From contig JAUIJE010000009.1 of assembly GCA_030431455.1 (NCBI GenBank), positions 248,001-312,000 on the forward strand: DNA of 64,000 nt, given 5' to 3'. Made by a program: the position numbers and the translations under genes. The stretch is from a bacterium (lineage in GTDB: Bacteria; Myxococcota; UBA727; JAUIJE01). The stretch's first letter is position 1. The number at the start of each line of letters is the position of its first letter. Below are positions 9,844-18,632 of this stretch, one piece after another. Below the pieces are notes generated by a model. It was given only the letters and a program-made list of their open reading frames with translations. It ran no database searches and was not told the DNA's origin.

Positions 9844-9960
9844 CGTGGGGCCCGTGGGCGACGGCATGAACCACATCGCCACGGTGGGGCGAGGATTTCG
9901 GAAACCGCGCCAAAGTGCGCTACAACCTTCACTCGGCCGGTCCGGCCTCGAGGAGGGATC

Positions 9961-10740
9961 ATGCTGGGGTTGATCGTGGTGGCGGTGGACGGTTCCGACG
10001 GTCTCGCGGCGCACGCGGTCCTCGACGAGCTGCTCGGGGTGCCGGTGCTCGCGCGGTCCATCGCGGGTGCGCTCCCCGCCGACGAGTCGGTGACCGGGGT
10101 GCTCGTGGTGCCGCAGGAGCTGTGCGACAAAGTACAAGCCGACGTCGTCGAGCGCTTCGGGTTTGACGAAATCGACCGGGTGGTGAGCGGCGGTCCGGGC
10201 ATGGCCGCGGCGGTGCAAGCCGGCTTGAGCGCGCTCCCCGACGACGTCGAGACCGTGATCGTGCAGCACGGGGCCCAGGCGTTGTGTCCCATGGGTCTGG
10301 TCGAGCGGGTGGTGCAGGCGGCCCGGGATGGTGGCGCGGCCGCCCCCGGGGTGCGGTTGCTGGGCACGGTGGTCAACGCCGCGGGCGACGACGTGGAAGC
10401 GGCCGCGGGCGGGCACAACCTGCGGCAGCTGCAGGGGCCCCAGGCGTTCGCGGTGGGCGACCTCAAAGAAGCGGTGGGCAACGCGGGCGACGGGGCGGCG
10501 GTGAGCCAAGACCCCGCCCAGTGGGCGTTGGCCGCGGGCGGCAAGCTCGCGGTGATCGACGGGGACGCCGACAACATGTTGCTGCGCGACGCGGCCGACG
10601 TGGGACGCGCCATCGAGGTGTTTTCCCGCCGCGCGGTGGAGTTTCCGTTCGTGTACCCGCGCGACCTGCTGCCCGACGATCCGCTCGCCGACGCGCTGGC
10701 CCCCGGGGACAGCGGCGAAGGGCAGGGCGCGTCGGAATAG
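9961..10740 (+). CDS. IspD-like nucleotidyltransferase fold protein lacking catalytic residues
   Basis: The 259-residue product aligns along its whole length with IspD (2-C-methylerythritol 4-phosphate cytidylyltransferase) but key motifs are changed. The nucleotide loop AAGxGxRM-G is replaced by VAVDGSDGLAAHAV. The GG-RxDSV motif reads SGGPGMAAAVQ, the HDAARP motif reads QHGAQAL, DTxK reads GTVVN, and the C-terminal NIKIT reads NMLLR. The scaffold phrases (LGVPVLARSI, GPQAFAVGDL, DAADVGRAIEVF) remain. The order CarD-IspD is common in bacteria, so this is probably a decayed or repurposed orthologue, not a random homologue. AGGAGG precedes the ATG. If no other ispD exists the pathway role must be re-examined. 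Confidence 0.7.
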   Translation: MLGLIVVAVDGSDGLAAHAVLDELLGVPVLARSIAGALPADESVTGVLVVPQELCDKVQADVVERFGFDEIDRVVSGGPGMAAAVQAGLSALPDDVETVIVQHGAQALCPMGLVERVVQAARDGGAAAPGVRLLGTVVNAAGDDVEAAAGGHNLRQLQGPQAFAVGDLKEAVGNAGDGAAVSQDPAQWALAAGGKLAVIDGDADNMLLRDAADVGRAIEVFSRRAVEFPFVYPRDLLPDDPLADALAPGDSGEGQGASE

Positions 10741-11493: not shown

Positions 11494-13149
11494 ATGACCC
11501 TGCGCCTGTACAACACCCTGACCAAACAAAAAGAAGAGTTCGTGCCCCTCGAGGCGGGCAAGGTCCGGATGTACGTCTGCGGGGTGACCCCCTACGACCT
11601 GTCCCACGTCGGACACGCGCGCTGCTACGTGGCCTTTGACGTCGTGCAGCGGTGGCTGCGGACCAAGTACGAGGTCACCTACGTCCGCAACTTCACCGAC
11701 GTGGAGGACAAGATCATCGCCCGGGGCAACGAGATCGGGGAGGACCCCATCGCGTTGGCGGCCCGGTTCATCGACGAGTATCACGCGGACATGGACGCCC
11801 TCGGGGTGGCCCAGGCCGACGTCGAGCCCAAGGTCTCGACCCACATCGAGCAGATCGCGGCGTTCGTGAAGAAGCTTGAAGACGAAGGGTACGCCTACCG
11901 GGTGGACAGCGGCAGCGACGTCGAGGGGGCGGGGAGTGACGTCTACTACCGGGTCAAAAAGTTCGGGACGTACACCGACCTCTCCGGGCGCAACCTCGAC
12001 GACATGTTGAGCGGGGCCCGGGTGGACGTGGACAGCCGCAAGGAGTCGCCGCTCGACTTTGCCCTCTGGAAAAGTGCCAAGCCAGGCGAGCCCAAGTGGG
12101 CCTCGCCCTTCGGGCAGGGCCGGCCGGGTTGGCACATCGAGTGCTCGGTGATGGCGGCCGAACACCTGGGCCAGACCTTCGACATCCACGGCGGGGGCAA
12201 GGACCTGATCTTTCCCCACCACACCAATGAGATTGCACAGTCCGAGGCCTGCCACGGGGGGGCGAAGTTCGTCCGGTATTGGATGCACAACGGGTTCGTC
12301 AACGTCCAGGACGAGGACACCTGCCCGGTGTCGCAGCGCCCGTTGGGGCACATCCCCGTCGAGGACCGCATCAGCGCCGAGTACAACGGGCAACGGTATT
12401 TCTTCTCCAGCGCCCAGTGCCTGGAGAAGTTCAAGGCCGACCCCGAGACCTACCTGAAGATGTCGAAGTCGTTGGGCAACTTCTTCACCATCCGTGACGT
12501 GCTCGCGCGCTTCACCGCCGAGTCCTTGCGGTGGCTGCTGCTGAGCACCCACTACCGCAACCCCATCGGGTTCTCGCCGCGGCTCCTCGAGGAAGCGGAG
12601 CGGCGGGTGGCCTACGTGTACGAAACGTTCCAGAAGGTCAGCGAGTACTTGGGGCAACATGAGCCCGACGACGGCCCCGGCCTGAAGGAGACCTTCGCCC
12701 ACGACAGCGCCCCCTTCGACCCCTATGCACAGTTCTGCGCGGGGCTGGACGACGACTTCTCCACCCCGGTGGCGATGGCCGCGTTCGTGGAGATGCTCAA
12801 GGTCGCCAACCTCCTCGTCACCGGCCGGGAAAAAGAACTCATCGGCAAGAAGCTCAAGCCCAAGGACCGCGCGCGCCTGCTCACCGAGTGGCAGGGCGAG
12901 GTGGGCAAAATGGTCGCCATTCTCGGCATCGGCCAAAAGGACCCGGCGGCGTTCTTGCTCGCCCAGCGGGCCCTGCGGGTGAAGGCCATGGACATCGACG
13001 AGAGCGAGGTCGAACGGTTGCTCGCCCAGCGTGGCACCGCCCGGGCCAACAAAGACTGGGCCGCGGCGGATGAAGCCCGCGACGCGCTCAAGGCCATGGG
13101 CATCGAGGTGCGGGACACCAGCGCGGGCCAGGACTGGTCGGTGGCCTGA
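11494..13149 (+). CDS. cysS: cysteinyl-tRNA synthetase with an inserted YHS-like domain
   Basis: This class I synthetase charges tRNA-Cys with cysteine. The catalytic zinc ligands of the family are present (Cys in MYVCGVTPYD, Cys in WHIECSVM, and His and Glu in HHTNEIAQSE), as are the HIGH-type motif (SHVGHARCY) and KMSKSLGNF at residues 322-330. The anticodon-binding DALR region follows. At 551 residues it is about 90 longer than E. coli CysRS. Fifty of these (272-321) form an extra domain between HNGFVNV and KMSKS, described separately; a smaller insertion sits near residue 140. The start at ATG 11494 has GGTGAAGAG upstream. The reading frame is intact on both sides of the insert. Confidence 0.97.
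   Translation: MTLRLYNTLTKQKEEFVPLEAGKVRMYVCGVTPYDLSHVGHARCYVAFDVVQRWLRTKYEVTYVRNFTDVEDKIIARGNEIGEDPIALAARFIDEYHADMDALGVAQADVEPKVSTHIEQIAAFVKKLEDEGYAYRVDSGSDVEGAGSDVYYRVKKFGTYTDLSGRNLDDMLSGARVDVDSRKESPLDFALWKSAKPGEPKWASPFGQGRPGWHIECSVMAAEHLGQTFDIHGGGKDLIFPHHTNEIAQSEACHGGAKFVRYWMHNGFVNVQDEDTCPVSQRPLGHIPVEDRISAEYNGQRYFFSSAQCLEKFKADPETYLKMSKSLGNFFTIRDVLARFTAESLRWLLLSTHYRNPIGFSPRLLEEAERRVAYVYETFQKVSEYLGQHEPDDGPGLKETFAHDSAPFDPYAQFCAGLDDDFSTPVAMAAFVEMLKVANLLVTGREKELIGKKLKPKDRARLLTEWQGEVGKMVAILGIGQKDPAAFLLAQRALRVKAMDIDESEVERLLAQRGTARANKDWAAADEARDALKAMGIEVRDTSAGQDWSVA
12307..12456 (+). other. YHS-like domain inserted in CysRS before KMSKS
   Basis: Residues 272-321 of CysRS read, in pieces, CPVSQRPLGHIPVED, YNGQRYFFSSAQC and LEKFKADPETYL. 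This is the pattern of YHS-type small metal-binding domains, in the variant 'CPV(T/S)GxxLG...Gr.v..CC..C...F..dP.kYl'. The first and last Cys (277 and 309) are kept, while the usual middle Cys pair is Ser-Ser. Ordinary CysRS enzymes go straight from NGFVNV to the KMSKS loop. The insertion is in frame, with no repeat or scar at its edges. Confidence 0.8.
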
Positions 13150-15347: not shown

Positions 15348-15527
15348 ACGACGCTCCTGTGACCGTCAATGTAGCGCCGGGCGGGTGATTTTGGCGCGCG
15401 GTGGGGTGCGGGGCACAGGCATCAGCGGCGGGGGAGAACCGACGCTGACAGTTGCGGTAAGTATCTGAATTCATGTAGAAAAATGAATGGCACCAAAACT
15501 GCTGTGGGGAAGGGTGCGAGGTGCATC

Positions 15528-18500
15528 ATGAAACGTGGGTTGTGGACTGGATTGTGGACGCTGGGGCTGGTGTTGGCGGTGCCGCTGGGGGCGGGGTGCC
15601 CCGGCACGGCCGGGGATGGAGACGGGGACGGCGATGGCGATGGAGACGGAGATGGCGACGGTGACGGTGACGGAGATGGCGACGGTGACGGCGATGGCGA
15701 TGGCGACGGCGACGGCGACGGGGACGGGGACGGGGACGGTGACGGCGATGGGGATGGTGATGAGTTCACGTTCCCGTACGAGTGGCCCTACCCGTTCGAG
15801 GAGGTGACGATCACCCCGGACGCGTCGTGGACCACCACGATCAACCGCGACCATGCCTTTGTGGTGCGCCCCTACGACGGCTATTCACGGCCGCTCCCGG
15901 GGTACGTGAAGTTTTCCATTCTCATGCGCGATCCGGACACGGTGTACTTCCAAGACACCCAGCAACTCCCGTTTCACTACGATTTTGCCACCGCCCACCT
16001 GGACCCGTTTTTGGGCATGAGCCACGCGGCCTTCGACGCGGTGTCGCTGCACCAAGAGGGGCAGGAGGTCGTGCTCGGGGCGGTGGTGTTCGCGCCGGTG
16101 GACGCGCCGGCCGACGAGTACGGCATTCAGTTCGTGCGGCAGGACGCGATGCATCCCGAACTGGTGAAGATCCTGCACGACCTGGTGGTGAGCGCGGTCG
16201 AACAGACCACGCCGTTCTATTTTCCCACCTTTGAACAGCAGGGCGTGGCCCAGACCTATGCCGACTACTTCCTCGACGAGGGGGTGGTGATCTCGGACGC
16301 GGGCCGCTGGGCCAAGGACGACGACTGTTACGTGGAGGGCTGGGCCTACGGCCGGCTGGTGGAGGTCGATCCCGCCGAGGTCAACAATGCCTATGCAAGT
16401 GGTGCGCTCTTGCCCACCGACATCCTCGTCCTGGACGGGGTGCCGGCCGAGATCCCGTTTGTGCAGGGGGTGATCAGCCGCTCGGCCTCGACCCCCAACA
16501 GCCACGTGGCAATCCTCGCCGCGCAGTACCAGACCCCGTTTGTGTTCGTGCGGGACGAGGCCGCCCTCGACGACATCGACGCCCTCCTGGGCCAGACCGT
16601 GATGCTGGTGGTCGAGGCCGATTACACCGGGACCTGCAAGGCGGAGGTGTTCGACGCGTCCGGCTTCCCCGCGGCCACCGTGGACCATTTGCTCGACCTC
16701 AAGGTGCCGGCCCCGGTGGTGTTCGAGGCCAAGGACACCGCGGGCGCGGTGAGCCTCGCGGTGGACGATCTCGGCCCCGATGACGCGCGGTACGTCGGGG
16801 GCAAGGCCGCCCACTACGGCCTGCTCATGGACGTGCACGATGAGCCCGTGGTGCGCGACGCGGTGGCCCTGACCTTCGACGTGTGGGACGCGTTCATGGC
16901 CCAGCCCCACACCGACGGCGGGACCTACGCGAGTCAGATCGAGGCCCGCTTGTCGGGGCACGCGTTCCCGCCCGACTTCGACGCGCTGTTCGACGACCTG
17001 GCCGCGGTGCGGGACATGATCGAGACCGCGCCGTTCCCCAGCGATCTGGGCGACGAGGTGCTCGGCGCGCTCGCAGGCTACGAGCCGCTGGTCCGGCTGC
17101 GGTTCCGCTCGTCGACCAACGTCGAGGACGGCGAGACGTTCACCGGGGCGGGGCTGTACGACTCCAAGACCGGCTGCCTCGCCGACGACCTTGATGAAGA
17201 CGGGGCCGGGCCCAGCGCCTGCGACCCGGGCGAGGCCAATGAAAAGGGCGCGCTGCGGGCCCTGCGCAAGGTGTACGCCAGCTTCTACAATGACAATGCA
17301 TTCGTCGAGCGGCTGCGGCGCGGGGTGGACGAAGCCGACGTGGGCATGGCGGTGCTCGTGCACCGCTCGTTCCCCGACGAGACCGAACAGGCCAACGGCG
17401 TGGTGGTGCTGCGCCGCTCGGGGGTGAGCGACCAGCTCGAGGTGGTGACCCAAAAGGGGGCGGTGTCGGTGACCAACCCCGACACCGCGGCGCTGCCCGA
17501 GGTGATGAGCATCTACGCCAGCACCCTCGGCACCTACCCCACCTTGGTGCAGTCGTCGTCGTTGCTGCCCCTGGGGGCCACGGTGATGACCGACCCCGAC
17601 GACTACGAGACCTTGACCCAACACCTGCGGCTGGTGGCGGACCGCTACGAGGACGTGGTCAGCCCGGTGGTGCCGTTCACCCTGGACTTCGAGTTCAAGA
17701 AAGTCGTCGACGAGGGCTTGGTGGTCAAGCAGGTGCGGCGCCTGCCGCAACCCACCGCCCAACAGGACACGGTGTTCGTCGACAAGGCCCCGGAGCTTTG
17801 TGTGTTCCAGGGCGAGACCGGCGAGGTGTTCGCCAACCACCGGCTGAAGTCCCGGCTCACGCTGCGCACCGATTCGTTCCCGGTCACCGAGGAGCGACTC
17901 GCCCAGGCCATCGTCACCGACAGCAACCTGTTGTCGCTGGCCGCCGACGGCACGTTCCAGACCCACACCGGGGCGCTCGGCACCTACCCCAATGCCGTTC
18001 ACACCGCGGACGGCAACGACGTGCACGACGTGTTCGACGTGGGGCCCGTGACCTGGGACCTCGGCTACACCGTGCCCCTGACCGTGGGCCCCTCCGATGT
18101 GCCCATCATCGGCCTGTCCGACCTCGGGGTGTACGTGATGGCGACCCAGCCGAGCCCGATGCCGCAGTCCAACTACGGCGGCGTCCCGTCCAGCGGCACC
18201 GAAGACTGGATCAATCTTCAGCCCTGCGCCCCCGACGCGCCGCCCCCGGGGGCGATCCCCCACCACGTCGACGTCACCCACGGGGGCATCAGCGTGGCGG
18301 TGGACATGTTCTACCCGCCGGCCACGTTCCAACAGGGCGCGGGCTACACCGCGTGGTGGGTGGGCTGGGACCAGACCGTGATCACCGGCCTCACCACCGA
18401 TCCCCTGGTGCTCACCGGCTACTGGTCCCAGACCTTCCGGCCCGAGCACCACAACTTCTCCGAGCACTTCGTGTTCGAGCCCCGGCTCGACGAGAACGTC

Positions 18501-18632
18501 ACCGCCGCCCAGCTCGATGAGCTGGCCGCCGCCGACATCAAACAAATCTACATCTACGGCGGGCTGCTCTCGCCCGGGGGCGAGGGCGTCGTGTACCTCA
18601 TCGGCTTCGACGACGTGCCGCGCGAACCCTGA
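15528..18632 (+). CDS. lipoprotein with Gly-Asp linker and PEP synthase-like domains in reversed order
   Basis: The 1,034-residue product starts at ATG 15528 (GAGG seven bases upstream; an in-frame ATG at 15483 has no site). Signal and lipobox are LVLAVPLGAGC. A (Gly-Asp)25 linker follows at residues 29-78. A segment near 300-350 (VQGVISRSASTPNSHVAILA) resembles the phosphohistidine domain of PEP-utilising enzymes with its His. VGGKAAHYGLL (about 425) and RFRSSTNVEDGETFTGAGLY (about 525) match the PPDK N-terminal ATP-grasp domain. In PpsA/PPDK the ATP-grasp domain comes first, so the order here is reversed. A beta-rich C-terminal domain ends the protein. ATP chemistry outside the cytoplasm would be unexpected, so activity is uncertain. 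Confidence 0.85.
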   Translation: MKRGLWTGLWTLGLVLAVPLGAGCPGTAGDGDGDGDGDGDGDGDGDGDGDGDGDGDGDGDGDGDGDGDGDGDGDGDGDEFTFPYEWPYPFEEVTITPDASWTTTINRDHAFVVRPYDGYSRPLPGYVKFSILMRDPDTVYFQDTQQLPFHYDFATAHLDPFLGMSHAAFDAVSLHQEGQEVVLGAVVFAPVDAPADEYGIQFVRQDAMHPELVKILHDLVVSAVEQTTPFYFPTFEQQGVAQTYADYFLDEGVVISDAGRWAKDDDCYVEGWAYGRLVEVDPAEVNNAYASGALLPTDILVLDGVPAEIPFVQGVISRSASTPNSHVAILAAQYQTPFVFVRDEAALDDIDALLGQTVMLVVEADYTGTCKAEVFDASGFPAATVDHLLDLKVPAPVVFEAKDTAGAVSLAVDDLGPDDARYVGGKAAHYGLLMDVHDEPVVRDAVALTFDVWDAFMAQPHTDGGTYASQIEARLSGHAFPPDFDALFDDLAAVRDMIETAPFPSDLGDEVLGALAGYEPLVRLRFRSSTNVEDGETFTGAGLYDSKTGCLADDLDEDGAGPSACDPGEANEKGALRALRKVYASFYNDNAFVERLRRGVDEADVGMAVLVHRSFPDETEQANGVVVLRRSGVSDQLEVVTQKGAVSVTNPDTAALPEVMSIYASTLGTYPTLVQSSSLLPLGATVMTDPDDYETLTQHLRLVADRYEDVVSPVVPFTLDFEFKKVVDEGLVVKQVRRLPQPTAQQDTVFVDKAPELCVFQGETGEVFANHRLKSRLTLRTDSFPVTEERLAQAIVTDSNLLSLAADGTFQTHTGALGTYPNAVHTADGNDVHDVFDVGPVTWDLGYTVPLTVGPSDVPIIGLSDLGVYVMATQPSPMPQSNYGGVPSSGTEDWINLQPCAPDAPPPGAIPHHVDVTHGGISVAVDMFYPPATFQQGAGYTAWWVGWDQTVITGLTTDPLVLTGYWSQTFRPEHHNFSEHFVFEPRLDENVTAAQLDELAAADIKQIYIYGGLLSPGGEGVVYLIGFDDVPREP
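15612..15761 (+). repeat. 25-copy GGNGAY tandem repeat encoding (Gly-Asp)25
   Basis: Twenty-five in-frame hexamers of the form GGNGAY code for alternating Gly-Asp. Third positions vary freely among copies, so the DNA is not a recent perfect expansion and the protein sequence seems to be under selection. The linker follows the lipidated Cys within a few residues and should hold the folded domains away from the membrane; its negative charge might bind calcium. Confidence 0.95.

Follow-up and report, generated by a model that had tools for sequence, protein, structure and literature searches.

A YHS domain inserted before the KMSKS loop of a cysteinyl-tRNA synthetase in a small lineage of Myxococcota

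Introduction

Small domains lodged beside the KMSKS motif are known from aminoacyl-tRNA synthetases. In bacterial leucyl-tRNA synthetase (LeuRS) the leucine-specific (LS) domain sits just ahead of KMSKS in the chain, and a zinc ribbon stripped of its ligands has been proposed as its origin (PMC6588880). The domain is a buttress for the mobile loop and a guide for tRNA, important but not essential (PMC5059758). In cysteinyl-tRNA synthetase (CysRS), an insert of about 20 residues near the active site of the Halobacterium enzyme raises turnover (PMC3787623, citing Evilia and Hou 2006). YHS/TRASH domains, by comparison, bind metal through four positions (D or C-x2-C ... C-x3-C), and in the toluene-4-hydroxylase crystal one occurs with no metal bound (PMC4626032). 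We describe here a CysRS in which a domain of the latter type occupies a position like that of the LS domain.

Results

The gene and its insert

The window is the whole stretch of DNA analysed, 64,000 nucleotides of contig JAUIJE010000009.1 from a bacterium of the phylum Myxococcota, and all features described lie on its forward strand. Positions 11494..13149 hold cysS, encoding a CysRS of 551 amino acids that matches TIGR00435 (E=1.6e-143) with a score of 479.2 bits, above the curated cut-off of 340. It is the only CysRS match in a genome rated 96.87% complete, which rules out a second, diverged CysRS standing next to an ordinary one. Since no other copy is at hand, the enzyme very likely aminoacylates tRNA-Cys. 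The sequence retains what one expects of the family: the HIGH-type motif as HVGH (residues 38-41, 11605..11616), the KMSKS catalytic loop (residues 322-326, 12457..12471), and the equivalents of the catalytic-site zinc ligands in conserved columns of the CysRS alignment, namely Cys29 (11578..11580, nearly invariant), Cys217 (12142..12144, invariant), and His242 and Glu246 (12217..12231, where H242, H243 and E246 are all invariant).

An earlier note on this DNA, made from the letters alone, had pointed to 50 extra residues between NGFVNV and KMSKSLGNF, and the translation bears this out. Positions 12307..12456 (residues 272-321, between V271 and K322) read QDEDTCPVSQRPLGHIPVEDRISAEYNGQRYFFSSAQCLEKFKADPETYL. 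Solved CysRS chains align with residues 1-274 of the query and resume at 322, so that residues 272-321 are additional. The open reading frame is continuous across the insert, and the GC fraction of the insert is equal to that of the remaining gene (0.653 vs 0.655). As homologous inserts are present in two other, diverged genomes, an assembly artefact, one of the outcomes that would have undone the note, is ruled out, as is contamination.

The insert is a YHS domain

The core of the insert, residues 294-321 (12373..12456), matches the Pfam family YHS (PF04945) with E = 6e-10 and 39.4 bits within the whole protein, against a cut-off of 30.3, and the profile search that the note had proposed for the insert alone gives 43.3 bits. 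The corresponding inserts of the two relatives, L002 and L003, reach 13.5 bits (below the cut-off) and no listed match, respectively; they are tied to YHS through sequence alignment and through an independent profile built locally from 16 YHS domains, free-standing or from ATPases. On that profile the insert of the window scores 42.5 bits and those of the relatives 26.7 and 16.7, each above all 5000 of its own shuffles (for the window, 0 of 5000 reach its score and the highest reaches 9.6). The three inserts together align by hhalign with the 16 YHS domains at 98% probability, and the two relatives' inserts alone at 96.5%.

Predicted structures agree. The AlphaFold2 model of the full-length enzyme, whose alignment contained no free YHS row, has a mean pLDDT of 92, with blocks of the insert at about 56-79, and shows the insert as a hairpin plus helix (strands 293-297 and 300-304, helices 307-315 and 317-321). 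A model of the insert alone reached a pLDDT of 83 from a shallow alignment that included two YHS domains from viral contigs. (When viral contigs were scanned by pattern, one pattern led to only three real YHS proteins and two other YHS patterns gave no productive match.) Foldseek places YHS-bearing phenol/toluene hydroxylases in all first ranks for this model (prob 1.00, TM 0.76 by query length, E 0.008), and it also matches the TRASH domain 2das. Owing to the two free YHS rows, the match is not fully independent, though the full-length model, made without them, gives the same hairpin and helix. At its N-terminal end the insert has the CPV pattern of the phylum's free-standing YHS proteins, among them a protein of genome G021 and a predicted lipoprotein of genome G022; the note had named planctomycete lipoproteins among the bearers of YHS-type domains. 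The insert is a genuine YHS domain of the treble-clef/TRASH type. It does not belong with the LS domain of LeuRS, a fold derived from a rubredoxin-type zinc ribbon: its profile and fold are those of YHS, and the protein is a CysRS.

Metal-ligand positions

The full set of four YHS/TRASH ligands was looked for in the insert of the window and is not there. Two of the four positions are kept, the residues being C277, S280, S305 and C309, in line with the note's account of two cysteines kept and a central CC pair lost. L002 also keeps two (C, S, G, C, with a shifted Cys304), and L003 keeps one (C, T, A, A, with extra cysteines at 285 and 304). The third position is thus Ser, Gly or Ala. The note had singled out two cysteines for a check of conservation, and they fare differently: Cys277 (12322..12324), the first ligand position, is present in all three enzymes and is the only ligand position common to them, whereas Cys309 (12418..12420), the fourth, is present in two and replaced by Ala in L003. 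The missing cysteines are kept in free YHS proteins and in the same genome, where a heavy-metal P-type ATPase (L064/L067, G000:C27:43854-44120) carries two tandem intact YHS domains with D-C-C-C. To judge from these sequences, the ligand set is decaying, or changing from lineage to lineage, while the residues that define the fold persist.

Distribution and gene context

The two relatives carry their inserts at the same site and at equal length, 44% (L002, genome G004) and 28% (L003, genome G001) identical to that of the window. Both genomes belong to the window's order but to a different family, within which they represent two genera. Identity is higher outside the insert, 54-74% in the flanks and about 70% in the catalytic part. 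The KIIK motif of CysRS is KIIA in the window (residues 73-76, 11710-11721), KIIK in L002, and KIIR in L003 and in a further relative, L005.

A search with the insert region through 195 genomes of the phylum gave matches spanning the YHS domain in three genomes only, those of the window, G004 and G001; only one further match ran through the site, in G017, where the insert is zinc-ribbon-like and unrelated. Contigs of about 85,000 species were also scanned with the pattern P..[FY][hydrophobic]KMSKSxGN, which misses YHS inserts that are joined by a linker or lack the proline; the scan, which may omit the window's own genome, returned the two relatives, listed as Myxococcota MAGs, and otherwise only L061, a chance match in a frame that does not encode a CysRS. 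Within the reach of this pattern, a wide, overlooked family of such enzymes can be set aside. YHS domains as such are common in the phylum (148 of 189 genomes), and among the matches listed in that search only the window's, in a frame of 561 amino acids, is known to lie within cysS, the two relatives falling under the threshold of the search.

Beside cysS lie carD, an ispD-like gene and a gene for a 218-residue protein with no Pfam match. The upstream neighbours carD and the 218-residue protein are kept in relatives whether or not these carry the insert, and the two insert-bearing relatives share the gene neighbourhood with the window. It follows that cysS was inherited vertically and that the insert arose within the gene. 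In a free tree, the window's enzyme (family f1) groups with f3 (support 93/82), and a single clade of YHS-bearing enzymes (f1 and f2) is not rejected (p-AU 0.259). The YHS domain probably entered cysS once, in a small lineage of Myxococcota.

Two nearby genes of the window may be recorded here. The IspD-like protein (9958-10737, forward strand) matches PF01128 (E=7e-17) from profile position 23 and begins LIVVAVDGSDG; its nucleotide-binding loop looks altered from the usual IspD form. At 15483-18632, also on the forward strand, lies a gene for a protein of 1049 amino acids with a signal-like N-terminal stretch, then a (GD)n repeat and a PPDK_N ATP-binding domain (E=1.2e-13). From its sequence the protein is apparently exported, which is odd for a PPDK_N domain.

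Other states of the site

Other members of the phylum have something else, or nothing, at the same point. L004 and L005, from the same order, carry Cys-free inserts of about 25 residues before KMSKS. Considered as candidate shrunken YHS domains, they proved similar to one another, with 1 of 5000 shuffles scoring as high, but shuffle-tested comparison detected no similarity between them and the YHS inserts. The two share VEEIVDE and come from families f3 and f4. In family f7 (L006/L223 of G017, and L222 of G040), the insert directly before KMSKS has two Cys pairs, CxxC...CxxC and CxxC...CxC; matches to zinc-ribbon/rubredoxin models are below threshold, and the local YHS profile gives no match. 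L007-L009 and most other enzymes have no insert before KMSKS.

There is also a second insertion site in CysRS, after HYRSPxNFEV (near residues 362-365 of the window's enzyme), occupied by zinc-ribbon-like inserts of about 40 amino acids with CPxC...CxxC, all of whose matches to zinc-ribbon models are below cut-off. These are carried by L007-L009, L019, L021-L026 and L225, in genus g4 of family f4 and in families f7, f8 and f10.

tRNA-Cys

Among 30 tRNA-Cys genes of the phylum, an A:U pair at position 12:23 of the D-stem occurs in the three genomes with a YHS-bearing CysRS and in no other. As a check on chance, 7 of 4060 arbitrary triples show at least 2 exclusive columns. The pair may be a weak hint that the tRNA adapted to the insert, and it may equally be one shared ancestral change with no co-adaptation. 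The inserts are acidic (net -4 to -6), which disfavours direct contact with tRNA or broad contacts with its phosphates.

Discussion

What might a YHS domain do at this position? The best explanation, to which we give about an even chance, is that the insert is a structural brace or lid for the KMSKS loop. A YHS domain would have entered cysS where the Rossmann catalytic domain meets the region of KMSKS and stem contacts, and there shed most of its metal ligands but not its hairpin-plus-helix fold. Packed beside the KMSKS loop, it may tune mechanically the closing of the loop, and perhaps also the docking of the acceptor/D-stem side of tRNA-Cys, as the LS domain does in LeuRS. Metal would by then be dispensable to it. 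The persistence of the fold-defining residues through the decay of the ligands favours a structural role, and kinetic effects are plausible, as the insert of Halobacterium CysRS raises turnover. The zinc-ribbon-like insert of family f7 at the same site and the A12:U23 pair are supporting hints. On the other side of the ledger, the insert diverges faster than its flanks, so constraint on it may be loose; it is acidic; and its likeness to the LS domain is one of position and history, neither of sequence nor of fold.

Or perhaps the insert has little function, a passenger tolerated at a permissive site and now decaying. Its fast divergence, loss of ligands and narrow distribution would all be expected in that case, as would the same-order relatives with short, Cys-free inserts or none. 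However, the inserts hold on to the YHS pattern (CPV, F, P..YL) at 28-44% identity, well above shuffles, and at the conserved residues 16 of 22 same-residue codons differ between the window and L063. A pattern that outlasts so many synonymous changes indicates selection on the fold, and we regard a mere passenger as possible but unlikely. Less probable still is the suggestion of the earlier note that the domain senses metal, thiol or redox state and tunes the activation of cysteine. On this reading Cys277 and Cys309 would bind a metal, Cu(I) for example, or form a disulfide, and the KMSKS loop would shift in response. For Cu(I) two thiolates can be enough, and the window does retain two cysteines, at the first and last ligand positions. 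There is also precedent, in that a C-terminal YHS domain gives an adenylyl cyclase of Mycobacterium phlei its response to copper (PMC4626032). A conserved sensor should keep its ligands, yet only Cys277 is common to the three enzymes, the positions of the other cysteines vary, and the cysteines lost here are the ones that the ATPase of the same genome and the free YHS proteins keep. The domain is, moreover, limited to three genomes of one order. The idea of a sensor is thus unsupported, and a structural brace is the more likely, although the window's own enzyme might still have a two-Cys site.

That a partner protein docks on the domain, recruiting to CysRS some protein of translation or of cysteine or metal handling, strikes us as the most doubtful of these possibilities. 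Fingers of the treble-clef and FCS types often serve as contact sites for other proteins (PMC4047054), and the surface of the insert is acidic; the neighbouring genes (carD, the ispD-like gene and the protein with no Pfam match), however, suggest no partner and are kept irrespective of the insert. If one were to speculate further, CysRS might respond to copper or thiol state through Cys277 and Cys309 or, in a milder variant, the domain might be a newly acquired tRNA-docking module that co-evolved with A12:U23. We think this improbable, and were the two cysteines a sensor after all, metal or redox stress would throttle the charging of cysteine in this lineage.

Returning to the structural brace, inserts adjacent to KMSKS shape the motion of class I synthetases, and the origin of the LS domain as a decayed zinc ribbon is known by inference only. 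Related CysRS show four states at one site: no insert, a short Cys-free one, one with four cysteines that is zinc-ribbon-like, and a YHS domain with decayed ligands. They offer a natural series in which to test how an essential enzyme takes up a metal finger and converts it to a structural part, and whether the tRNA adapts.

Like the note, which knew of no described CysRS of this kind, a literature search found no published CysRS with a YHS domain (automatic domain databases may list the architecture). What we describe is a new domain at an insertion hot spot already known from synthetases, and it may be compared with several systems. Within CysRS, the f7 insert occupies the same site and differs in its four cysteines, its zinc-ribbon-like character and its lack of a YHS profile match. 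The Halobacterium salinarum peptide likewise lies near the CysRS active site and affects catalysis there; unlike the YHS insert, it is about 20 residues long, has no reported domain fold and belongs to an archaeal halophile (PMC3787623). Among YHS domains (PF04945), those of heavy-metal P-type ATPases, diiron hydroxylases, adenylyl cyclases and lipoproteins share with the insert the profile, the hairpin-plus-helix and the pattern CPV...FxxxC...F...P..YL, but those are terminal or free, whereas this one lies inside an enzyme and, in the window, has lost ligand positions 2 and 3. The copper-responsive cyclase of M. phlei joins YHS in one chain with an enzyme that uses nucleotides, as here, but by C-terminal fusion and with the full D/C/C/C set (PMC4626032). 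The LS domain of LeuRS is a close parallel: like the insert, it is a small domain of a class Ia synthetase placed directly ahead of KMSKS in the chain, its proposed ancestor is a metal finger, and some relatives do without it (PMC6588880, PMC5059758). It is, however, related to rubredoxin and zinc ribbons, whereas the CysRS insert is a YHS/treble-clef domain of independent origin, in another synthetase, whose comparable role we infer.
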